This document shows, one piece after another, positions 7,238-20,133 of a stretch of DNA of 40,544 nt. The DNA comes from Chitinophagia bacterium (GTDB lineage Bacteria; Bacteroidota; Bacteroidia; Chitinophagales; Chitinophagaceae), in assembly GCA_009922495.1 (NCBI GenBank), contig RFVQ01000002.1, forward strand, positions 1 to 40,544. The letters run 5' to 3'. How positions within the stretch are numbered: the stretch's first letter is position 1; each line of letters opens with the position of its first letter. The notes under the pieces were generated by a model. It was not told the DNA's origin. It saw only the letters and a list, made by a program, of their open reading frames with translations, and did no database searches. Made by a program: the position numbers and the translations under genes.

Positions 7238-7948
7238 TTATTTGAGTTTCTTCAGGTAGATCTCCCGGTACTCCACTTTCATCTTGGGCATTACATGCAC
7301 CTGTAGGCCAATAAGCCCACTCATTTTCCTCTTGGAAGCATCTTCATCCGTGGTCTCGCTCATGAGCACGCCATTGATGTAATGCAAGATATGATTGCCT
7401 TTCGCAATGATGTGGATCTGGTTCCAGTCGTCTTTTTTGATCTTGGATTTTAATTCATCACTGTTGCCTAGACTACCGGTGATCGTGGGCTTTTGACCCT
7501 CTTTCAACACAGATTGTTCACCTCGCATGGCCAGGAAACCTCTTCCTCTTTCCTCATAGTTCTGACCGGTGTAGCGATTGGCACCATCGATGTCGGCCTG
7601 ATAGCCCTTCAATCCGTAAGGCACATTTTCAACCATTTCGCTGCGGTATTGTACGCCGCTGTTGCCTTCGGGACTGATCCTGTACTCCGCCTTGAATTCA
7701 AAGTCTCCCGGAGTATCACCGCGGTAAATCAGGAAAGTGTTGGATTTTAGCTGTTTCTCTTTTGTCACTTCACCCACGAAAGTTCCGTTCTCAATTCTCC
7801 AGTGACTGGTATCCGCCTCCCAGTGCTTCATGGTTTTCCCATCAAAGATCTTCTTGAATCCATCCTTGCTTTTTTGGGCATGAAGGTTCAAGAAAAGCGA
7901 ACTGAATGCGCAGGTAAAAAGCAACAACTTGAGGTTCCTGGTTTTCAT
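7238..7948 (-). CDS. DUF1080 / 3-keto-disaccharide hydrolase domain protein
   Basis: This 236-residue protein has a signal peptide (residues 1-24, ending LHAQ) and one DUF1080 jelly-roll domain. Family hallmarks are FDGKTMKHWEAD near the start, WRIENGTFVGE, SNTFLIYRGDTPGDFEFKAEYRIS, GNSGVQYRSE, GYQADIDG, and the closing GLIGLQVH...VEYREIYLKKL. Characterised members cleave 3-keto glycosides, either as hydrolases or as 1,2-lyases. It is the last gene of the nine-gene minus-strand cluster, 45 nt after a Gfo/Idh/MocA dehydrogenase that could generate the keto-sugar. It is expected to act in the periplasm. The preferred substrate cannot be inferred. Confidence 0.88.
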   Translation of the reverse strand: MKTRNLKLLLFTCAFSSLFLNLHAQKSKDGFKKIFDGKTMKHWEADTSHWRIENGTFVGEVTKEKQLKSNTFLIYRGDTPGDFEFKAEYRISPEGNSGVQYRSEMVENVPYGLKGYQADIDGANRYTGQNYEERGRGFLAMRGEQSVLKEGQKPTITGSLGNSDELKSKIKKDDWNQIHIIAKGNHILHYINGVLMSETTDEDASKRKMSGLIGLQVHVMPKMKVEYREIYLKKLK

Positions 7949-7993
7949 CTTTTTGTTTTGTGGTATAGAGTTGATCCGGTTTAGGAAGGGCCG

Positions 7994-9136
7994 TTAATCA
8001 CAGCTCTTCCAACTGCGGCTTGCAGCAGAGTCCAGAACGGCCTGACAAACTTTTTGGGTTTCATAAGCATCCTGGAAGGTAGGGGAGCAGGGCTCACCGG
8101 TTTCAATGCTTTTCAGGAAATCAGCCACCTGGTGAACAAAGGAATGCTCATAACCGATGCCCAATCCGGGTACCCACCATTTGTTCATGTAGGGTTGTTC
8201 GCCATCGGTTACATGGATGGAACGCCATCCCCTCAGATTGGATTCATCTCCGTTGTCGAAATACTCCAGGCGATTGAGATCGTGAAGATCCCAGCGGATG
8301 GAAGCATTGGCACCATTGATTTCAAATGTATACAAGGCCTTGTGTCCGCGCGCATAGCGGGTGGATTCAAAAAGCCCCAGTGATCCATTGTTGAATTTGC
8401 AGAAGAACGAACAGGCATCATCAATGTGCACATCTTCCACCTTGCCCGTCAGCTGGTGCATCCTTTGTTTGACGAATGTTTCCGTCATGGCGGATACTTC
8501 CTGAATACCTCCGTTGATCCAGATGGCAGTATCGATACAATGCGAGAGTAGATCGCCTACCACACCGGATCCTGCAACCGCTGCATCCATGCGCCATAGG
8601 GCTTCGCCTCCTTGTGGAAGGTTTTCATTGATGGTCCAGTCCTGCAAGAAGTTGGCACGGTAGTGATAGATCTTGCCCAACTTTCCGGAGGCTACAATAT
8701 TCTTGGCCAAGGTAACGGCAGGGATTCTTCTGTAGTTGTACCATACAGTATTCTTCACACCGGCTTTTTCAATGGCGTCCACCATTTCCTTGGATTCTGC
8801 CAAGTTTCTGGCCAATGGTTTTTCACAGAGAATCATCTTGCCTGCCTTTGCTGCTGCAATGGCGATCTCTGCATGGGTATCATTGGGCGTACAAATATCC
8901 ACTGCATCAATGTCGTCTCTTTCGATGAGTTTTCTCCAATCGGTTTCGGTGCTTTCATAACCCCATTGTTCAGCAAAGGCCTTGAGTTTTGTTTCGTTTC
9001 GAAAACAAACCGCTTTCAATACTGGCTGGTATTCCAAATCTGGGAAAAAGTTGGGTATTCTCTTATAACCGTTCGAATGGGTTCTGCCCATAAAGCCGCC
9101 ACCGATCAATCCGATGTTCAATGTTTTTTTTGCCAT
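7994..9136 (-). CDS. Gfo/Idh/MocA-family sugar dehydrogenase (cytosolic)
   Basis: This 380-residue protein has no signal peptide and opens directly with a Rossmann motif ([13 protein letters not shown], glycines 12-17). E105-K106-P107 is the family EKP motif, whose lysine contacts substrate. D195 and H199 in [13 protein letters not shown] are the expected D-x3-H catalytic pair. The [15 protein letters not shown] segment resembles levoglucosan- and glucoside-dehydrogenase-type members. It is probably an NAD-dependent oxidation at C3 (or another ring carbon) of a sugar. It lies between the TIM-barrel isomerase gene (37-nt AT-rich gap) and DUF1080 in the operon. Unlike the exported paralogue at 6067-7236, it should be cytosolic, so the cluster may use one enzyme on each side of the inner membrane. 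Confidence 0.88.
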
Positions 9137-9173
9137 GTTTTAATTTTTTAAAAAATATATAGTCAATTTTCTT

Positions 9174-10205
9174 TTAACCGTTCCAACCATGATGATCCCT
9201 CACCTTGATCAAGGCGGCCAGGATATCGTTCCAGGTTTGTTGTTTCATCATCACTTCATTGGGGAACATACAGCCGTCCCAACAGATATGTTGAAAGGCC
9301 TTGGTGAGTTCTCCTTTTTCATCCCTGAGCCAGAAGCCCGCATGTTTGGCAATGTCGAGCTTGCCGTTGGGATCCAATGCCTGACAGTGCCTTCCGGTCT
9401 TGTCATGTGATCCAGTTCCATGAACGGTACCATCATTTTGTGCTACATGAAAATCGATGGTCCAGGGTCTCAAGGCAGCAGTAAGTTTCCTCAATCCTTC
9501 ATCGAGAGCAGCACCATCGCTCCAATCAAAATTTTCAGGAAGAATGCGATCTTCTGGAGCGTTGTATCCCAGCAGATACAGCAGGGTATGGGCCATGTCG
9601 GCCTGGAAACCAATGTTCGGACGATCCACGGCTTCCAGTGTATCAATCATGGTCTTCCAGCTGTGCATCCCACCCCAGCAGATTTCCCCCTCGGCTGCCA
9701 GTCGCTCACCGTAATCAGCCGCCACGTCACAGGCTTCGCGGAATGTTTCTGCAATCAATTTGGTATTGCCGGCAGGATCCTTGGCCCATGCTTCAGGTTT
9801 GCTGGCAGAATCGATTCTGATGATGCCGTAGGGCCTTACACCAGCGTTGCGCAGTTTCTTGCCGAACTCACAGGAGCGTTTTACCATGTCTACAAAGACA
9901 GCACGATCTTCCTTGCTGCCCATGGCAGGACCGCCCCAGATGGGAGCCACCAAAGAGCCAATGTTCAGGTTCAGCGAACCTACTTTATCGGCCAGTCTTT
10001 TGATGCCATCTTCTGATTCATCAATGTTGAAATGCGGTTCAAACAAACCGATATCGATGCCATCGAATTTCACTCCATTCACCTCAGCATTGGCAGTGAA
10101 ATTGATGAGGGTATCCAGATCGATCGGTGGTTCTGAATCCGGACCTTTTCCTACGATACCAGGCCAGGTTGCATTGTGCAGTTTAGGGTAATTGTTTTGA
10201 GACAT
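9174..10205 (-). CDS. Sugar phosphate isomerase/epimerase, xylose-isomerase-like TIM barrel (343 residues)
   Basis: The sequence shows an AP-endonuclease-2/xylose-isomerase TIM barrel: [14 protein letters not shown] near residue 50, [11 protein letters not shown] (82-92), [16 protein letters not shown] (E172 or E174 as metal ligand), [17 protein letters not shown] (D203, H206) and [20 protein letters not shown] (H253). The last segment differs from the epimerase next door. No signal peptide is visible, so it is cytosolic. Members of this superfamily isomerise or epimerise keto-sugars using a divalent metal. It sits 26 nt after the D-tagatose-epimerase-like gene in the operon. The short gap holds a 13-bp inverted repeat CAATTT-T-AAATTG (10213-10225). 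The reaction is not determinable from the sequence. Confidence 0.8.
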
Positions 10206-10231
10206 ATGGTTGCAATTTTAAATTGAAAGAA

Positions 10232-11083
10232 TCAGTGTGAATGTTTGGCGATTTGTTGTTTGATAAACTTGAGACCATGCTCTGCCATGTCCCATGGTGC
10301 GGAATATTCTCTCCATACGTTGATGGCATTGGCAAAGTCGGGATCGTTTCTGGAAAAGGCTTCAATGGTCAGCCATCCGTTGAAGTTGATCTCAGCCAGC
10401 GCAGCAAAGGTTTCATCCCAATGCACATGGCCATCACCCGGTGTACCACGGTCGTTCTCGCTGATGTGTACATGTGCGAGAAGGGGAGCGATGGTATGCA
10501 AGGCGTCCTTGGCTTTTTTCTCCTCGATGTTGGAATGATGGGTATCGTACATGGCTTTCACATTGCTGTGAGAAGCCAATTCGATCAGGTGACGCAGTTG
10601 TGTCATGGTATTGCAGAGGTAACATTCAAATCTGTTCAAGGCTTCCAATGCAAGGGTGATTCCTGCTGTTGCCGCATGTTCACCAGCTTGGTGCAGCACT
10701 TCTGCACACCATTTGTATTCGTCTTCCTGAGGAGGTTTTTTTGAAAAATTTCCATGGGCAGAATGAAAGGGACCACAGAGAATGGTTGATTGCATGTCGT
10801 GTGCACGGTCAATGCCCCATTTGATGCGATCCAAGGCTTTTGCTCTAACAGCAGGATTGGGATCTACCGGATTCTGTTCTGCATCTACCACAAATACGGC
10901 AGTGGTTTCCAATCCAATGTTCGCTGCATGATCTCCAAAACGTTTGTAGGCTGCGTCATCGGGTGCACCGATGAAACATTCTACCCCATCATAACCAATC
11001 TCTTTGAGTCGGTCGATGATGGGAAACTGCTCATCTGAAACAACCGCTGACCAAACCAGTGTATTGAAACCTATTTTATACAT
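10232..11083 (-). CDS. D-tagatose/D-psicose 3-epimerase-like TIM-barrel protein
   Basis: The 283-residue length and the metal-site pattern match the ketose 3-epimerase family: ALEALNRFE (E147), YDTHHSNIEE (D180), HVHISENDRGTPGDGHVHW (H206) and TIEAFSR (E241). The spacing is that of D-tagatose 3-epimerase, whose ligands are E152/D185/H211/E246. The enzyme would invert C3 of a free ketose using Mn or Co. No signal peptide is present. It starts 8 nt after the ThuA stop and precedes a second TIM-barrel isomerase. A close alternative is a 3-dehydro-sugar isomerase/epimerase acting on a keto-glycoside product. Confidence 0.85.
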   Translation of the reverse strand: MYKIGFNTLVWSAVVSDEQFPIIDRLKEIGYDGVECFIGAPDDAAYKRFGDHAANIGLETTAVFVVDAEQNPVDPNPAVRAKALDRIKWGIDRAHDMQSTILCGPFHSAHGNFSKKPPQEDEYKWCAEVLHQAGEHAATAGITLALEALNRFECYLCNTMTQLRHLIELASHSNVKAMYDTHHSNIEEKKAKDALHTIAPLLAHVHISENDRGTPGDGHVHWDETFAALAEINFNGWLTIEAFSRNDPDFANAINVWREYSAPWDMAEHGLKFIKQQIAKHSH

Positions 11084-11091
11084 GTTGTATG

Positions 11092-11985
11092 CTATTTTCT
11101 GTAGGGTACATGAATGTCAATCGGACCAGCCCATTTCTTGGGGATCTTTTTTCCTGCTGCCCAGTGGATGGCATTGATCACCAAATGCTGGAAGGGCTCC
11201 TGATCAAAATCTTCCGGATGTCCCATCGTGGTGAAAAAAATCTTTGCACCATATTGGTTGATGCCTGTCCAGGCCACGGGATTATCATAGGCTTTGTTCG
11301 TATTGGGATTCACGGAATGTCCCATCATCAGGGCCTTTGAGCCATTGGAAGGAAATTTTGGCAGCACCTGGTACAGCCATGAACGCACATGAAAACTTTT
11401 GCCTACACCATTGAGTATCGGATCATCCGCTACGGCTTCGATCATGGTCACATCGGTAGAAGATTCATGTCCGTAGTGTGTGTGTTTGTCTACACCGCCC
11501 CAACCGGGAGGCGTATTGAAAGCCCATTCACCAAAGGCGTTCCAGCTTGCCAAAGGATGACCCTTTGGATAATTGAAAGCATGTGTGGTGGTACGGAATC
11601 CTACCATGGGTTTTTTTGTTTGCAGAAATTCTTCGATCAGTTTCACTTGGTCAGCCGGTAATCTTCTCCAGCGGAGAAAAAATACTGCCATGTCTGCCTC
11701 CTTCAAGGCTTCGAGTCCGGGTATGTTTTCTTCTGCATTGTGATCAGGATAAGCCTTTAATACCTTGGTCCGGAATCCATAATTTTTTTCCAGTTCCGCA
11801 GCAATTTTGGGCATGGTGGCTTCGCTGCTGTATTCATGATCACCGGTTACAAAAACAACCAAAGGTTGTTTGGATTTTTTCTGTGCCATGCCAATGGTGG
11901 CAATCAGCATGCTGCAGGATAGGAGCAAAACACCGATCGTGCCCTTGTGTAACAGATAATATGCTATTTTTTGAGTGTTCATCAA
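11092..11985 (-). CDS. ThuA domain protein, exported
   Basis: This 297-residue protein has an N-terminal hydrophobic segment ending IGMAQ (about residues 17-35), consistent with a signal peptide. The ThuA glutamine-amidotransferase-like fold follows: VVFVTGDHEYSSEATMPKIAAEL, ALKEADMAVFFLRWRRLPADQVKLIEEFL, PMVGFRTTTHAFNYP, HTHYGHESSTDV, and FFTTMGHPEDF with HLVINAIHWAAGK at the end. ThuA was named for trehalose/sucrose use, and proteins of this family recur in keto-sugar clusters. The catalytic role is not settled. The start is the first of two adjacent ATGs, 15 nt after the 1065-residue gene. Confidence 0.87.
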   Translation of the reverse strand: MMNTQKIAYYLLHKGTIGVLLLSCSMLIATIGMAQKKSKQPLVVFVTGDHEYSSEATMPKIAAELEKNYGFRTKVLKAYPDHNAEENIPGLEALKEADMAVFFLRWRRLPADQVKLIEEFLQTKKPMVGFRTTTHAFNYPKGHPLASWNAFGEWAFNTPPGWGGVDKHTHYGHESSTDVTMIEAVADDPILNGVGKSFHVRSWLYQVLPKFPSNGSKALMMGHSVNPNTNKAYDNPVAWTGINQYGAKIFFTTMGHPEDFDQEPFQHLVINAIHWAAGKKIPKKWAGPIDIHVPYRK

Positions 11986-12000
11986 GTGTATGATTTAAGG

Positions 12001-15000
12001 TTATTTTTTCTCCATGGGATGTTGCTTGAGCAATTCATCCGGAGTATAGAAACCGGTTCTGTCTTTAATGGCAGCCCTCACTTCTTTTACTTTCTGGGGA
12101 GATACTGCTGGGGCTTTGTTGCCAAATGCATTTCGCACATAAGTCAATACTGCCGCCATGTCATTGTCATTCAGCATACCTGCGTAGGGAGTCATGGGAA
12201 CCTGACCTGGATATTTTTTTCCGTTGACTTCGATCGGTCCATATATCCCTTTCATGACCAATTTGATCAATCGGTCTTCACTGCCGTTCACCCATTCAGA
12301 ACCTGCCAGCGGAGGGAAGCCGGATGTTTCCAGTCCCTTGCCATCGGCCTGGTGACAGGTATTGCAAAATCCTTCGCGCATGTAAATGGCCTTGCCCGTA
12401 GACATTACTTCGGGTTTGATACCGGCTACCACAGGAGCTTTGTCTTCAGGAACCTGTTTGGTTTTGATGATGCCATGTCCGTTGATATGTGCCTCTGCTG
12501 CGGCATAAGCACCTTTCATCCAAGAGTCCAAGGGTTTTTTTCCTGCTTCCAGGATGATGGGCAATCCTTGTTCTTTGCTCAACCAGGAAGCAGAAACAAT
12601 GGCCTCCAGGCGAACCCTGGCATCTTCATCCTTTGCAGCGCTCATCAGCAAATTGGCTTTGTCGGGTAATTCGCTTCCAGCAAACCTCACCACTTCAACC
12701 GCTGCAGACCTGATCCGACGATCCTTTGCTTGCAACAATTGGCGGAGCAGGGGTTGGTCTACTTTGTTTTGTCCCCATGAAACCCAAAGGGCTTCCAGCA
12801 ATAGTTTTTCATATTGTGGAGATGTTTTGTCAAGACCGGCTATCCATTTCTTGAGTTCAGGTAATACTGCTGATGCAGGATGCTCCCTTAATTCTCTTCT
12901 TGTTCTGTACCGGGTTCTGTACTCAGGAAGCTTCAGGTTATTCAGCAATTCTGAAATGCTTGCACCATCCACTTTTGCCGGCGTAACCAATGGCCTGGAA
13001 GGGTAGGTGACCCTGTAGATCCGGCCATGTGAATGGTCCCTCAACGGGTCCCTGATATTGTGTTGCATGTGGCCGATCAATACATTGTGCCAGTCGGCGA
13101 TGTAGAGCGAACCATCCGGTGCAAATTCCAGGTCAACGGGACGGTAATTGATGTCGCTGGATCGAACCAGGTCCTGGCGATGCTTGCTGCCAAATCCGGC
13201 TCCGTCATCGTACATCCTGTGTTGTTTGGTGCCCAGGAAACCAATCGTGTTGTTGATCAGCATATCCCCCTGCACATCATCCGGAAAATGCCTGCTGGAA
13301 ATAAATTCCAGACCCGATGTAGGCCTTACCCTCTGCTTCTCTTCAATGATGCTGGCTGGTTTGGGGGTGTATTCGCCATAGCGAGGTTTTACCGTTCCGG
13401 GGATCATCCAGGTTACATCCGGACCGGAGGTTTCGGCATAGAATACCTGTCCCCATTCATCAAAGGCAATACCCCAGGGATTGGGAATCGACAATTGCGC
13501 AATGCGGTCGAGTTTTTTCTTTTTGGGATCGTAGCGGAAGAAACCACCGTTGGTTCCCCTAACAGTGCCATAGGATGTTTCGATGTCATTGGCAAGGAAT
13601 ACACCTTGTCCCATGTAGATACCACCGGATGCATCCGTGGTATAGGCATGGTGCGCGTGATGGGTATCGTGGTCATCGAATCCGCTCAGCAGGATCTCGC
13701 GTTTGTCTGCCACATCATCACCATTGGTATCTTTCAGCAAAAAGAAATTGGTGCCCTGTGAAAGATACACTCCTTCAGGTGCCAGTTCAAAGCCCAGTGG
13801 GAGGTGCAGGTTATCAGCATAGGTGATTTGCTTGTCAGCCTTGCCATCATTGTTGGTGTCTTCCAGGATGATCAGCTTGTCGTTCGGTTTGGGATCACCC
13901 GGTTTCCAATGGGGATAGGTAGGCATAACCGCTACCCATAGCCTGCCTTTGTTGTCGAATGAGATTTGAACAGGTTTTGCCAGATCAGGGAATTGTTCTT
14001 CTGACGCGAAAAGATCAATCTTATAGCCAGGTGCCAATGTGAATTTCTGCAAGGCTTCCTCGCCATACAAATAACGCAAGGCTGCACTGGTGTCCTTGGG
14101 AACATAGTTGGTTTTTACGGCGGGCAGAACGGATGTTTTGGCATCAGCAGCAGCTAGGTCATATGCAGTGCCTCTCGCAGCCATCCAGATCGCGGTATCC
14201 CTGATCAGGGTCATCTCGCGGATCTTTTTTTGTTCTGCGGGATAGTTATCCGGTCCAAATGGATCATATCTTCTTCCGAATACATGAACCCCATTGGGTA
14301 TTTTGTAATCGTTGTGCCAGATCCAGTTTTTTTCCATCACGGCATCAAACACCGTTTTTGGATTGGCCGTTGAGATCGTTTTCTGTTTTCCAAAAACTTT
14401 GTCAGCCAGAAAAGGTCCGAATTTGGCATACCCATCATAGGTCAATTGTGATCCGTCAATCGTCAGATCTGTTGAGGGATCGTCTATCCATTGTTTGCTG
14501 ACGGTATAGGCATCCACAAAATGAACTTTGTTTTTGGCGGCCACCTCTTTCATGGCGAGTGCATACAATTGCAGATTGGCATTCTCTTTCTTTCCATTGG
14601 GCAGATCATACTTGGCAGAAAGATCTTCAAAAGCAATAGGAGATACCAGTACCAACTGAGGAGCAGCTTTGCCGTTGTATTGCTGGGCAAGGGTATGTTT
14701 GATGAAGGCGTCGAGTTCGGCCTTGTAATTGTTCAAACCAGCGGCGCCGGCAAAGGATTCATTGTAACCAAAGAAAGCGATGATGATGTCTGCTTTGTGA
14801 TTGGTCAGCCATTGATCAGGATATTCTTGAAATCCCTGAAGGTCTGCAGGCTTTGCCAGTTCTGTTTGAAATTTTTCCGCACCCGGAAAAGCCCATGGTG
14901 TCTTTCTTCCTGAATGAGGTCTGAATCCAGGCGTGTTGCCACCGTCACACATGTTGCGGACATACAACAGGCTGTCTGGGTAACGAAGATGAAGAGCGGT

Positions 15001-15198
15001 CTCAAAATAATCGGCATTGATCATCCTGGACCCCAGGTTGTTTCCGATCAGGATGATATGGGATCCTTTCTTGATGCTGATCTTGGGATCCTCAGGGAGT
15101 ATGAAGGCCATGATACCTGCCAATAGCATGCATCCTGATAACAACCATGTAGCCTGTTTTTTAAAATTCGATTTTATTTTCATGTTGGAAAGCATCAT
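12001..15198 (-). CDS. Exported SGNH-like / beta-propeller / HEAT / c-type cytochrome protein (PVC-type heme-binding family)
   Basis: 1065 residues. An N-terminal hydrophobic segment (about 15-33) is followed by four regions. (1) An SGNH-hydrolase-like domain (45-270) ending near DGSQLTYDGY. (2) A six-bladed propeller (about 385-710) with LAPGYKIDLFASEEQFPDLAKPVQISFDNKGRLWVA, EDTNNDGKAD and NPWGIAFDEWGQVFYAETSG. (3) An alpha-helical HEAT-like region (about 750-890). (4) A cytochrome c domain with CNTCH at 945-949 and a candidate axial Met in PMTPYAGML. It is probably periplasmic, oxidising a sugar and passing electrons to the respiratory chain. The start ATG shares an ATGA overlap with the cupin gene stop, indicating translational coupling. 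An alternative start is 15183. The SGNH triad is degenerate: GNN for GDS and Q for H. Confidence 0.84.
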   Translation of the reverse strand: MMLSNMKIKSNFKKQATWLLSGCMLLAGIMAFILPEDPKISIKKGSHIILIGNNLGSRMINADYFETALHLRYPDSLLYVRNMCDGGNTPGFRPHSGRKTPWAFPGAEKFQTELAKPADLQGFQEYPDQWLTNHKADIIIAFFGYNESFAGAAGLNNYKAELDAFIKHTLAQQYNGKAAPQLVLVSPIAFEDLSAKYDLPNGKKENANLQLYALAMKEVAAKNKVHFVDAYTVSKQWIDDPSTDLTIDGSQLTYDGYAKFGPFLADKVFGKQKTISTANPKTVFDAVMEKNWIWHNDYKIPNGVHVFGRRYDPFGPDNYPAEQKKIREMTLIRDTAIWMAARGTAYDLAAADAKTSVLPAVKTNYVPKDTSAALRYLYGEEALQKFTLAPGYKIDLFASEEQFPDLAKPVQISFDNKGRLWVAVMPTYPHWKPGDPKPNDKLIILEDTNNDGKADKQITYADNLHLPLGFELAPEGVYLSQGTNFFLLKDTNGDDVADKREILLSGFDDHDTHHAHHAYTTDASGGIYMGQGVFLANDIETSYGTVRGTNGGFFRYDPKKKKLDRIAQLSIPNPWGIAFDEWGQVFYAETSGPDVTWMIPGTVKPRYGEYTPKPASIIEEKQRVRPTSGLEFISSRHFPDDVQGDMLINNTIGFLGTKQHRMYDDGAGFGSKHRQDLVRSSDINYRPVDLEFAPDGSLYIADWHNVLIGHMQHNIRDPLRDHSHGRIYRVTYPSRPLVTPAKVDGASISELLNNLKLPEYRTRYRTRRELREHPASAVLPELKKWIAGLDKTSPQYEKLLLEALWVSWGQNKVDQPLLRQLLQAKDRRIRSAAVEVVRFAGSELPDKANLLMSAAKDEDARVRLEAIVSASWLSKEQGLPIILEAGKKPLDSWMKGAYAAAEAHINGHGIIKTKQVPEDKAPVVAGIKPEVMSTGKAIYMREGFCNTCHQADGKGLETSGFPPLAGSEWVNGSEDRLIKLVMKGIYGPIEVNGKKYPGQVPMTPYAGMLNDNDMAAVLTYVRNAFGNKAPAVSPQKVKEVRAAIKDRTGFYTPDELLKQHPMEKK

Positions 15199-16409
15199 AA
15201 TGAGAGATCGGGGTTATTGGGACCAAAATGTTTGAGGATGACAATGGGATCGGTCGTGGAGGTATTGACGATCTTCACGCCTTCCATCGCCGCTTTTTCA
15301 CTGATGAAGAATTCATCGTTGGTGAGTTGTCCATAGCGGATCAATGCTGGGGTTTCAATTTCCCATACGCCAAATGTTCCGCGACCTTGCATGACAATGA
15401 TGCCATACGCAGCACTGTCTTTGATGGTAACGGTTTGTCCGGGCAACACAGTCAGCTCTTTGGCACTGAAGGCATCCGATTTATAACAAACCCAGTTTTC
15501 AACATAACCTTCGGCCTTCATTTCATCCAAATTCCTTACTGGCTTGGGCGCCATGAATCGATGCTGCATCATGTTGGGATCCACATTGAGTTCCCAGTCG
15601 AGCACATCCATCAGGGCATCATAATCGCCGATGCTTTCTTTTGGGGTACCATTCCACAACAATTCTTCCGGTATGATCGCTTCATTCACGAGCGACTGGT
15701 ACATCGCAAATACATCTGAAGCTTTTTGGGGCTCATAAGTACACATGCTGCCGGGTGCATGAAGGAGTCCGGGGGGAACATCCCATCCAGTTCCGGGTTC
15801 CAGTCGGTAGGCTTGAGAATAGTTGGTAAGCTTGTTATCGCCCTTGGTGAAATTCATCAGACATTCCTTGATCACTTCTTTGGGCGTACCAGGAGCGATA
15901 CCGATGAAGGTATAGGGGAAATCGCCACCATGGTTGTTCAATTGTGGTGGGAAATAATAGGCTTCTGGTTTTCCTTTCTGTCCTATGAGTGCAGCCTTTT
16001 CATCATTGTGGTGCACATGATGGGGAAGGGGCCCCATGTTGTCGAAGAATTTGGAATACATGGGCCAGCTCTGGTATTCATTCCAAAGACGGTCACCGAT
16101 CAATGCGCCTTTGAGTTCATCAACAGCGTCTTTGAGCAGGAACTGATGGGTTTTTCCTCCCTCTTCAAAAACAATGGGACTCAATCCTTCGTTCTCTCCG
16201 GTAAGGGGTCCATTTTTCGCAGGTGTAGTGGAGGACAGCCAACGCTCATCAATACCCCCACGCGCACCGCCGAGTACATAGTAATCGTCTGGATGCAATT
16301 TGATCCTTCTTCCGGGAACACAAAAGGATCGCGGTACCCAGGTGGGAGCCAGGCGTAGAATACCTTTTCCTTGTTCCAGTGCTTTCTGTGCCATTGATTG
16401 TGCGCTCAT
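15195..16409 (-). CDS. Cupin-domain protein resembling type I phosphomannose isomerase
   Basis: This 404-residue cytosolic protein has no signal peptide. A metal-binding cupin motif is visible in GPLPHHVHHNDEKA near residue 130, followed by KPEAYYFPPQLNNHGG, in the arrangement used by mannose-6-phosphate isomerases (H-x-H and downstream E/H). Residues about 205-235 (EPGTGWDVPPGLLHAPGS) give the second H-containing strand, and a C-terminal cupin-like segment ends the protein (LPGQTVTIKDSAAYGIIVMQGRGTFG). It may isomerise an aldose-ketose pair in the cluster's pathway. The gene starts 10 nt after the DUF4432 stop and ends in a 4-nt ATGA overlap with the next gene. A non-catalytic sugar-binding cupin is an alternative. 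Confidence 0.7.
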   Translation of the reverse strand: MSAQSMAQKALEQGKGILRLAPTWVPRSFCVPGRRIKLHPDDYYVLGGARGGIDERWLSSTTPAKNGPLTGENEGLSPIVFEEGGKTHQFLLKDAVDELKGALIGDRLWNEYQSWPMYSKFFDNMGPLPHHVHHNDEKAALIGQKGKPEAYYFPPQLNNHGGDFPYTFIGIAPGTPKEVIKECLMNFTKGDNKLTNYSQAYRLEPGTGWDVPPGLLHAPGSMCTYEPQKASDVFAMYQSLVNEAIIPEELLWNGTPKESIGDYDALMDVLDWELNVDPNMMQHRFMAPKPVRNLDEMKAEGYVENWVCYKSDAFSAKELTVLPGQTVTIKDSAAYGIIVMQGRGTFGVWEIETPALIRYGQLTNDEFFISEKAAMEGVKIVNTSTTDPIVILKHFGPNNPDLSL

Positions 16410-16419
16410 AACAGTTGTT

Positions 16420-17436
16420 TTAAGTGGTAATTTCTATTGTTAGGTTGTAGGTTCTTGTTTCTCCGGGTTCAATGAAGATCAGGGTGTTGTTTTCTCTTGC
16501 CTTTGCCTGTCCGATGGGTGGGTGTGATCCCGGCTCAATGCCGGTTACATATTCCCCTTTGCCAAAGTGTTGCCAGTTGGTGAGCCAGGGAAGTTCTAGT
16601 TTTGAAAATTTCATGGCAATGCCGAGATGGATTTTCGGATTGTGCAGTCCTGCAATGCATTGTCCCTTCTCATCCGCTTCAATATCGATGATGGCCACCT
16701 GCTCTCCGTTACCATTGTGCTCAGGGATGGCATCGCGGCATACTTTGAAAGCTTCAGGGTTGGGGAATTCCTTCCCCTCTCTTGTTGTCATGTTCCCCTT
16801 CCAAATCAACTGGGCTCCTTCATCCGCCAGTGGCCAACCAAAGTTGCAATGATAAAGGATCATGTGCGGGGCGGCTGTATTTCCTCGGTTGGTTATTTCG
16901 TCATGAATATGGATGGCTGATGATCCAAGCGTTGAAGAGATTGTTCTCCGCAGTTCAAGAGCAGGACCAAAAATATTGGACTCTTTGATGATGCCGGTAA
17001 TGCTCATTTCGTATTTGCCTGCAGCGGGATCGGGTTGGATGATGGATTCAACATAAGCAGGGGTATTGCTGATCCTGCCATGAATGCCTCTTTCTCCATA
17101 TTCATCTTTTTCAGGACCCCCTACATGGGTGAGCCCGCATGTATTCAAGAGCCCGCCTCCAAAGGTTCGCAACCAATCCAATCCCTTGTCGGACAAGGGT
17201 TGCGGGGGGGTGAAACCTCCATGGCTGAGCCATGCCAAGTTGAATTGATTGTAGGATGCATCAGCAATGTCCATCGCACGGTCAATCAACACCTTGTAGC
17301 GAAGTCCGGATCCTGTATTGATCCAGGCCACCCGCATGCCCCTGCTAAGACCATTGTCGATCACAGCGGTTTCAATGCCTCCGATCTGGGAAGCATTGCC
17401 AACCTTGTCATTCCATATGGATGGGTTTGGTGCCAA
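16420..17436 (-). CDS. DUF4432 family protein (aldose-1-epimerase-like fold)
   Basis: 338 residues, cytosolic. DUF4432 proteins share the galactose mutarotase beta-sandwich. Typical segments are GLSRGMRVAWINTGSGLRYKVLIDRAMDIADASYN (about 29-63), LDWLRTFGGGLLNTCGLTHVGGP (85-107), GERGIHGRISNTPA, IHDEITNRGNTAAPHMILYHCNFGWPL, and a C-terminal GIEPGSHPPIGQAKARENN with conserved E. It could mutarotate or bind a sugar intermediate. The gene begins 6 nt after the stop of the leading cytochrome gene and ends 10 nt before the cupin gene. Confidence 0.8.
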   Translation of the reverse strand: MAPNPSIWNDKVGNASQIGGIETAVIDNGLSRGMRVAWINTGSGLRYKVLIDRAMDIADASYNQFNLAWLSHGGFTPPQPLSDKGLDWLRTFGGGLLNTCGLTHVGGPEKDEYGERGIHGRISNTPAYVESIIQPDPAAGKYEMSITGIIKESNIFGPALELRRTISSTLGSSAIHIHDEITNRGNTAAPHMILYHCNFGWPLADEGAQLIWKGNMTTREGKEFPNPEAFKVCRDAIPEHNGNGEQVAIIDIEADEKGQCIAGLHNPKIHLGIAMKFSKLELPWLTNWQHFGKGEYVTGIEPGSHPPIGQAKARENNTLIFIEPGETRTYNLTIEITT

Positions 17437-17442
17437 TTCAAA

Positions 17443-20133
17443 TTATTTTGAACTGCTGTAAACCGGGTGATTGGGGTTGCCGCCGGATTTCAGAAAAGCC
17501 ATCAGGTCTTTCAATTCATCAGGATTCAAGCCATTGATCATGCCGGGAAGCATGGGAGAGATCTCGGAAACCCTTGTTCTTACCACATTCTTTTTCAAGA
17601 TCACCTTGATGGTTTGGGTGTCAAACGGATTTTGAGAGATATAGTATTTTTCATTGTCCTGGCGGATCAATCTTCCCAATACTGACCCTCCGGTTTTCAG
17701 GAAGAATACTGTTGATCCATATTGATCAGAAATGGTTTTGCTGGGGGCGATGATGGCTTCCAGCATGTCTTTGTTCGAAAATCTTGTACCCAGTTGTGTA
17801 AGATCAGGACCGGCTATGCCTCCTTCTCCTTTGACCTGGTGACAGGTACGACAGAGCGAGGCAGCGAACATGGCCTTGCCTTGCTCAAAGTTTCTGGTTC
17901 CGTTTCCACTGTCAACAATGGCCAATGCTTCTTCCACTTTCCAGTTCCTGCCGGGTCCTTTGGGACGAATGGGTCCAATGTCCAACCCTTTTCTTGCAAG
18001 GGTTACCAGCGAATCTCCCGATAGCTTGTTGAAGTTGGCAAAGCTTTCCTTTGGTACGTTTTCCAGCGCATTTTTACGTGCCTTGTCAATAAAGCCAACA
18101 TAACATACACCGCCTTTGTATCCAAACGCATTGTAGTACCATTGGAAATATTTGTTCCTGGACTCGTTTGTCCATCCATTTTTCGCCTGACTCAACACGT
18201 TGGCATACCATGTCTGGGTGAGGGGAGGCATTTTGGAAAGCATGCCGGCTATGTCCATTCCATATTGAGGATTGCGGAGGATTAGGTCGGATGATTCAGA
18301 CAATGTTTTTTGTCCGTTGGCATCGTCTTTGGCAACGGTAAGCAAAGCCATTGTTTTGTCTACAGCACCAGGGGCATCAACATATACCAATATCTTGCTC
18401 AATTCCTTGTTCAGGTCATTGGTGGTGGCTGGATAAATGGGATTGAGCAGTTTGGCTACCGCTTCTTTTTCTCCTGCATCCGGTGCACCCAATCTGGCAA
18501 AAACCAGTTCGATGGCACGGATCAGATCAAGCCTTTGTGATTCTGTCAAAGGAGTGATATTCACCTTGGTGAGGGCATCCAGCAATGGCTTCTTGACAGA
18601 GACATCTCCTCTTCTGGCCAATCCAATGGCAGCATGGGTAAGGATGATGGGGTCTTTTTCATTCAATGTTTTTTCCTTCCATTCAGACAATGGTTGAGCC
18701 TCTATGGCAATGCGGGCGGCATAACGGATGAACCGGTCTTTGTCCTTTAGGTAGGGCCATGCTTCATTTACTGCACCAGGTTTGGCAACACCGTGAAGGG
18801 CTTCAAGTTTTCTTCTGGTCTTTTGTGCTTCGCTCAACTCTGCTGCAATTGGTTTTGCATCCTTGCTCTCATTGCCAACATAATAAACCCTGTACAGATC
18901 AGATTCAAGTCTGCGGCCACCGGTAAGAAAATACATGGCGCCATCAGGACCTATTGTACCATCGGTGAGGGGCAATGGGGAGCCTGAAACAAATTCTTCA
19001 CCTGTTGCAGTATAGGATGCACCGTTCAGTTTTGGATAAACAGCGTAGATGATGCCGAAGCTCCAGTCAAATGCAAAAAACGCATTGCGGTATTTTTCTG
19101 GGAAGCGGGCATTCCCTCCATACATGAAATTTGTAGGAGAGCCTTGTCCCACATTCACTGCTGCAGGAAGATTGTCTGCATAGTTGGCATTCCATTTCAG
19201 TGTTCCGGGTCTCCATCCATATTCACCACCACTGGTCACTTGCAGGATCCTTGTGGGTCGGTACCAGGGTGTGCCGAAGTCCCATTCCATGTCAGAATCA
19301 TAGGTGAACATTTCGCCAACATTGTTGAAGGCAATATCAAAAGGATTGCGGAAGCCGGAAGCAATGAGTTCCCACTTGCTGCCAGTTGGGTCCACCTTTG
19401 CCACCCATCCACCATGGGATTCAACAGTATTGTCGTGACCATTGGGATCTTTGATGAGGGGGAAGAGGTTATCCAGTTTGCCATCTGGAATGTTCCGGTA
19501 GGCATCCATTTTCGGGATCTTGGTAAAATTACCCGCCACCACATGGATGGATTGTTTGTCGGGTGACAGCACCACACTGTGAGGGCCATGTTCACCGGAT
19601 CCTTCGAGTACTTTGAGCAAACTGATCTTATCAAATTGGTCATCGCCATCAGTATCCTGCAAACGATAGAGTCCGCTTGTTCTTTTCAATTTATTGTCAC
19701 CATTGTGATTGACCATTACATAAAGACTGTTGAAGGCATACAACAAGCCTTGTGCATACCCCATGGAAACTTTGTTGGGAGTGGTGTTGTTGAGAAACAT
19801 GGTATCTTGTAATACCTCAAGTTTCTCTACAGTTGTTTTGGTAACCGTATCACCAATCGCAGGTACTTTGATGCGATAAAGGAATCCATACTGATCGGAT
19901 GCGATGATCCTTCCTTTGTCATCAAATGTCATGGAAACCCATGATCCTTCTTGGTGCTCTGATGGCCCATACAGACGTTCTGCTTTGAAACCTTGTGGAA
20001 GTTTCAACTTGGCAACCTTAGGGTCAGGAGAGTCGAAAAATGCTTCTTGAATATTTGTTGAAAATGAAAAGGCAAGGGCAACCAAAAGGCATGATGCAGT
20101 AACCCAAACAAACAGGTTGATTTTTTTTCTCAT
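17443..20133 (-). CDS. Exported beta-propeller / HEAT-like / c-type cytochrome protein (PVC-type heme-binding)
   Basis: 896 residues and the first gene of the nine-gene cluster. It has a signal peptide (about 1-27). A quinoprotein-like six-bladed propeller (40-430) contains LKLPQGFKAERLYGPSEHQEGSWVSMTFDDKGRIIASDQYGFLYRI, DTDGDDQFDKI, HGPHSVVLSPD, SGFRNPFDIAFNNVGEMFTYDSDMEWD and GTIGPDGAMYFLTGGRR. A helical repeat region follows (440-720). The C-terminal cytochrome domain has CRTCHQVKGEGGIAGPDLTQLG at 761 onward, then the IIAPSKTISDQYGS segment typical of this heme-domain family. It probably exchanges electrons from periplasmic sugar oxidation with the respiratory chain. Unlike the 1065-residue relative in the same operon, it has no SGNH-like domain. 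Confidence 0.84.
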   Translation of the reverse strand: MRKKINLFVWVTASCLLVALAFSFSTNIQEAFFDSPDPKVAKLKLPQGFKAERLYGPSEHQEGSWVSMTFDDKGRIIASDQYGFLYRIKVPAIGDTVTKTTVEKLEVLQDTMFLNNTTPNKVSMGYAQGLLYAFNSLYVMVNHNGDNKLKRTSGLYRLQDTDGDDQFDKISLLKVLEGSGEHGPHSVVLSPDKQSIHVVAGNFTKIPKMDAYRNIPDGKLDNLFPLIKDPNGHDNTVESHGGWVAKVDPTGSKWELIASGFRNPFDIAFNNVGEMFTYDSDMEWDFGTPWYRPTRILQVTSGGEYGWRPGTLKWNANYADNLPAAVNVGQGSPTNFMYGGNARFPEKYRNAFFAFDWSFGIIYAVYPKLNGASYTATGEEFVSGSPLPLTDGTIGPDGAMYFLTGGRRLESDLYRVYYVGNESKDAKPIAAELSEAQKTRRKLEALHGVAKPGAVNEAWPYLKDKDRFIRYAARIAIEAQPLSEWKEKTLNEKDPIILTHAAIGLARRGDVSVKKPLLDALTKVNITPLTESQRLDLIRAIELVFARLGAPDAGEKEAVAKLLNPIYPATTNDLNKELSKILVYVDAPGAVDKTMALLTVAKDDANGQKTLSESSDLILRNPQYGMDIAGMLSKMPPLTQTWYANVLSQAKNGWTNESRNKYFQWYYNAFGYKGGVCYVGFIDKARKNALENVPKESFANFNKLSGDSLVTLARKGLDIGPIRPKGPGRNWKVEEALAIVDSGNGTRNFEQGKAMFAASLCRTCHQVKGEGGIAGPDLTQLGTRFSNKDMLEAIIAPSKTISDQYGSTVFFLKTGGSVLGRLIRQDNEKYYISQNPFDTQTIKVILKKNVVRTRVSEISPMLPGMINGLNPDELKDLMAFLKSGGNPNHPVYSSSK

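Follow-up and report, generated by a model that had tools for sequence, protein, structure and literature searches.

A conserved, non-canonical pocket in the SGNH-like domain of a propeller–cytochrome c protein found mainly in Bacteroidota

In soluble PQQ glucose dehydrogenase, His144 is the catalytic base and the Arg of the RNP motif contacts PQQ. Proteins of the DUF1080 family (PF06439) have been proposed as partners of periplasmic 3-dehydrogenases in lactose use (PMC9007349), and among SGNH enzymes, some depart from the catalytic triad (PMC9487903). Literature searches on a family joining an SGNH domain to a propeller and a cytochrome, or on SGNH pseudoenzymes, returned nothing specific. 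Here, we describe a protein of this architecture, encoded in a 40,544-nucleotide stretch of DNA from a Chitinophagia bacterium (hereafter, the window). Family search labels its N-terminal domain a GDSL-like lipase, whereas the motif evidence indicates that a large Bacteroidota clade of such domains would not be Ser/His hydrolases.

Domain architecture and fold

The gene (12001–15198, minus strand) encodes a protein of 1065 aa, for which Pfam, NCBIfam and a full-length model (pLDDT 83.9, pTM 0.85) delineate an SGNH-like domain, a beta-propeller, HEAT-like repeats and a cytochrome c domain. The first-pass annotation had placed an SGNH-like domain at 14388–15066 on the minus strand and described it as fused to a propeller-HEAT-cytochrome protein. 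Both statements are borne out: the interval corresponds to aa 45–270 of the open reading frame, and in addition to a Lipase_GDSL_2 match in the N-terminal domain (Pfam, E 9e-8), the propeller matches DUF7133 (Pfam, E 4e-69) and TIGR02604 (NCBIfam, E 7e-66; 223 bits, above the curated cut-off of 122), with HEAT and cytochrome c matches further along. The SGNH-like core spans aa 45–272 (14383–15066, minus strand, like all features below) and is followed by a helical extension (aa 273–345, WHN...GRRYDPFGPDN; 14164–14382), the beta-propeller (aa 380–732; 13003–14061), HEAT-like helical repeats recognized by Pfam and the full-length model (about aa 760–905; 12484–12921), and the cytochrome c domain recognized by Pfam (aa 934–1023; 12130–12399). 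As the extension is common to fused and stand-alone relatives, we take the N-terminal module to comprise about aa 45–345. Within the heme site, C945-N-T-C948-H949, residues C945, C948 and H949 are invariant. A hydrophobic helix at the start of the full-length model (aa 6–31) suggests that the protein is probably exported, and the c-type heme site would need export.

An AlphaFold2 model of the SGNH-like domain, informed by 103 family members, reached a pLDDT of 93.9 and a pTM of 0.92. Its closest solved structures in Foldseek were the acetylxylan esterase Axe2, LAE5, BT4096 and other GDSL enzymes, with E-values of about 1e-8 and TM-scores of 0.54–0.65 against several GDSL esterases, in keeping with the SGNH alpha/beta fold. 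The model assigns this fold to aa 45–272 with high confidence.

Foldseek searches with the full-length model, which also cover the propeller, returned soluble PQQ glucose dehydrogenase and Coprinopsis pyranose dehydrogenase as best matches, then DFPase and a heme-Cu nitrite reductase, the last of which matched the cytochrome part; besides DFPase, NHL propellers matched likewise. By sequence, the propeller had no significant homologue among solved structures. In a weak hhalign alignment to same-genus GSDH proteins, for which both profiles were shallow, the HH of DTHH fell on HH and PNPWG on RNPQG, and the Arg that precedes NPxG in soluble glucose dehydrogenase appeared, again in this weak alignment, as Pro. 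The PDB chain was checked and contains the stretch of glucose dehydrogenase with His144. The model thus relates the propeller to GSDH/PQQ proteins by fold only, and a sugar-oxidizing propeller is a plausible reading of it. GSDH matches of 1034–1066 aa in genomes of the same genus are not claimed as orthologues; in one genome (G503), such a match lies on contig 22 and the SGNH match on contig 79.

Substitutions at the catalytic positions

In the domain model, Asn54 opens the helix that comes after strand 1, where the catalytic Ser would be expected, and Gln251 occupies the loop ahead of the last long core helix, where active enzymes have the catalytic His. Aligning the family profile to solved esterases points to the same two positions: the GNN of block I (G52-N53-N54; 15037–15045) is matched to GNS in 7br2 and to GDS in 3rjt, and Gln251 of block V (D248-G249-S250-Q251; 14446–14457), in which the Asp is kept, falls on the His in the DGLH motif of 1yzf and 2hsj. 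Set against active SGNH domains, the protein therefore carries Asn for the Ser and Gln for the His, in line with the apparent loss of both catalytic residues that the first-pass annotation had noted.

We collected 110 SGNH-like domains from 297 genomes of the phylum and from a GTDB contig collection, the latter covered by a single scan that yielded mostly Bacteroidota; 107 of them, mostly from Bacteroidota, formed the main clade. All but one of these 107 domains have Q251 (the 106 that do are the Gln clade), the exception carrying Ser251, and within the Gln clade N54 occurs in 104 of 105 readable rows and D248 in all 106. In the same genus, 21 of 41 genomes proved to carry the gene, and every locus readable by pattern (16/16) has both N54 and Q251. 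Conservation of the substitutions among Bacteroidota homologues, a point left to be checked by the earlier annotation, is thus near-complete, so that they are not due to chance or sequencing error. One Gln-clade member with 66% identity (L084:6379-9450) lies in a metagenome-assembled genome labeled Acidobacteria, by gene transfer or misbinning.

Further residues of the domain are conserved as well. R58, R81, N82, R93, W102 and D248 are invariant in the Gln clade, with R81, N82 and R93 located in the block II loop (RNMCDGGNTPGFRPH, aa 81–95; 14914–14958), whose Gly87, at the oxyanion-hole position of active hydrolases, is kept in 109 of the 110 domains. An insert at aa 97–121 (14836–14910), containing a near-invariant PWAFPGAEKF, is present in the Gln clade and missing from His-keeping relatives. 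Together with these invariant residues, N54 and Q251 plausibly form a polar pocket. In block III (FGYNESF, aa 143–149; 14752–14772), E147 and S148 are kept, S148 being near-invariant like S57. The G-x-N block, which had been considered retained, is indeed present in the window protein but not throughout its relatives, where the oxyanion position 146 is variable (N in 78, S in 17 and D in 9 of the 110 domains), and this lack of conservation is a further argument against ester hydrolysis. No His of the domain is conserved above 92% in the Gln-clade alignment, making an alternative conserved Ser/His pair unlikely; such a pair was rejected at the sequence level. Loss of the Ser/His hydrolase mechanism, with neither the catalytic Ser nor the catalytic His of active hydrolases in place, is well supported by these comparisons.

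Decay of an unused domain was ruled out by dN/dS values of 0.02–0.10 between close relatives and by a mean conservation (0.77) like that of the cytochrome (0.79; HEAT part, 0.73). Sites conserved in at least 98% of sequences are enriched in the loops of blocks I, II, III and V: these loops make up 45 of the domain's 228 positions and contain 22 of the 53 sites (hypergeometric test, p 2e-5). This pattern supports a constrained pocket that was retained and rebuilt, not abandoned.

At block V, more distant relatives, from the Bacteroidota phylum search (L028–L030) and from the phylum to which L084 is assigned, have NGVHL or a similar sequence, so that they keep the His but show Asn or Gln where the Asp is expected. 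Their block I reads GNS, GNT, GNG or GNA, and in a few cases GSA, GGT or GGA. The GDS sequence was found only in two distant relatives (L138 and L139), the former combining it with DGVH. With T, G, A or S occupying the nucleophile position in distant fused relatives, a Ser nucleophile is dispensable outside the Gln clade, too. When the three sites and the insert were left out of tree building, 86 Gln rows grouped as one with the only Ser251 row (SH-aLRT 99), their common stem measuring 1.33 changes per column; the outgroup branches were long, leaving the outgroup order unsure. Judged against the more distant relatives, the substitutions look to have arisen in one old event, and the tree fits this scenario. 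A plasmid collection searched for outgroups returned one distant Runella protein only. At loci L141–L148, long open frames of 1291–1739 aa encode a divergent SGNH-like domain whose block I is GGT or GGA and whose block V is NGMHL; in L141, a related propeller comes after it.

Genomic setting and candidate roles of the pocket

The gene is part of a minus-strand run (7238–20133) that comprises, in order, genes for a second propeller-heme protein, a DUF4432 protein, a 404-aa protein, the SGNH-cytochrome protein, a ThuA protein, two TIM barrels, a Gfo/Idh/MocA protein and a DUF1080 protein, and this order is collinear in many Chitinophagales loci. The DUF1080 neighbor belongs to the 3-keto-disaccharide hydrolase family, and the Gfo/Idh/MocA neighbor is related to levoglucosan dehydrogenase, below that family's cut-off. 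Conserved neighbors in the available DNA of 80 relatives, whose flanks are often cut short, were ThuA-like proteins (at least 61), TIM barrels (at least 47 and at least 41) and Gfo proteins (at least 39). A periplasmic 3-keto-sugar route is the likely setting, the 7238–20133 run being a likely 3-keto-sugar catabolic cluster.

Several members of the run are highly similar between loci. The TIM barrel at 9174–10205 and the Gfo/Idh/MocA protein at 7994–9136 (both minus strand) are 71–96% identical in loci containing them, and in several marine flavobacteria these two genes stand directly upstream of the SGNH-cytochrome gene. The 404-aa protein (15195–16409, minus strand) is 79–93% identical in relatives that have it; it matched nothing in Pfam or NCBIfam at E 0.01, nor any PDB sequence at E 0.1.

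We lean, with somewhat better than even confidence, toward a catalytically dead SGNH domain whose pocket was rebuilt once and early, and which now offers a non-hydrolytic site to a ligand that is polar and probably sugar-like, within a probably sugar-oxidizing propeller-cytochrome protein. In a mainly Bacteroidota clade, Asn would have replaced Ser and Gln would have replaced His, with the gain of a new loop insert. The matches of the full-length model to PQQ sugar dehydrogenases and the sugar-oxidation genes nearby count in favor of a sugar-like ligand for the resulting binding site. As the N-terminal module of an exported protein, the domain may help the GSDH-like propeller, which would probably oxidize a sugar and pass electrons to the C-terminal cytochrome c. 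A carbohydrate-binding module that presents substrate to the oxidizing propeller, as suggested in the first-pass annotation, is plausible; we infer both the sugar binding and the hand-over.

A conserved polar pocket would also fit a new enzyme activity. The rebuilt pocket might be not a mere binding site but a new active site with non-SGNH chemistry, in which, for instance, Asp248, Arg58/Arg93 and Glu147 would serve a lyase, isomerase or hydratase reaction on a keto-sugar. The strong conservation of the pocket-loop residues, the near-invariant clade-specific insert and the position of the gene among 3-keto-sugar chemistry genes would suit such an activity, but E147 is changed in 3 of the 106 Gln-clade members and no SGNH-fold enzyme with this chemistry was found in the literature searched, so that we regard it as quite unlikely. 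More doubtful still is its most elaborate form, in which the SGNH scaffold was turned once into a site built from Asn54, Arg58, Arg81, Arg93, Asp248, Gln251 and the PWAFPGAEKF loop, performing non-hydrolytic chemistry on oxidized sugars and coupled in one polypeptide to the sugar-oxidizing propeller and cytochrome.

Conservation of the pocket could also stem from contacts, if the domain were a structural scaffold that packs on the propeller or docks the protein to a partner. Main-clade matches do lie in frames of fused length, a helical extension connects the SGNH-like domain to the propeller, and the full-length model scores well (pTM 0.85); set against this, conservation is focused in the loops lining the old active site and stand-alone relatives of the domain exist, making a scaffold unlikely in our judgment. 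Continued hydrolysis through another nucleophile and base, such as Ser57 or Ser148 with His95, is very improbable: S57 and S148 are near-invariant and triad deviations occur in some SGNH enzymes (PMC9487903), yet about 9% of the clade have another residue in place of His95, none of the His residues is invariant, Asn146 of the oxyanion hole is variable, and S57 is new to the clade, its close relatives mostly carrying D or E there. The preferred reading remains that of a non-hydrolytic binding site.

Relation to described systems

Hydrolases and the present family together form a natural series, from canonical domains with GDS and DGxH through relatives with T, G, A or S and NGxH to the Gln clade with N and DGxQ, along which the step-by-step change from a hydrolase to a domain with a binding role or a new function becomes testable. 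Were the domain to serve a sugar dehydrogenase, this would help explain a widespread, uncharacterized exported redox system.

With the SGNH/GDSL hydrolases, especially Axe2 and BT4096, the domain shares its general fold and the placement of its blocks I, II, III and V. Unlike in hydrolases of this type, the catalytic Ser is replaced by Asn, the His by Gln, and the oxyanion Asn is not conserved; the insert, the helical extension and the fusion to a propeller-cytochrome protein are additional. The oxidizing protein of LacABC is of an architecture unrelated to that of the protein described here. As with the LacABC lactose 3-dehydrogenase and its DUF1080 hydrolase (PMC9007349), a DUF1080 protein is encoded near putative exported sugar-oxidizing proteins at the present locus, too. 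Soluble PQQ glucose dehydrogenase and the PQQ domain of Coprinopsis pyranose dehydrogenase are the top Foldseek matches, and the His of DTHH can be aligned with the catalytic His144; the protein nevertheless differs from both enzymes in lacking a significant sequence match, in apparently carrying Pro for the Arg before NPxG and in its multidomain build. PVC-type heme-binding CxxCH proteins (TIGR02604) resemble it in a propeller that scores above the family cut-off here and in a C-terminal CxxCH heme domain. It is set apart from them by its N-terminal SGNH-like module and by a cytochrome of the Pfam Cytochrom_C type, without a TIGR02603 match, like that of heme-Cu nitrite reductases.
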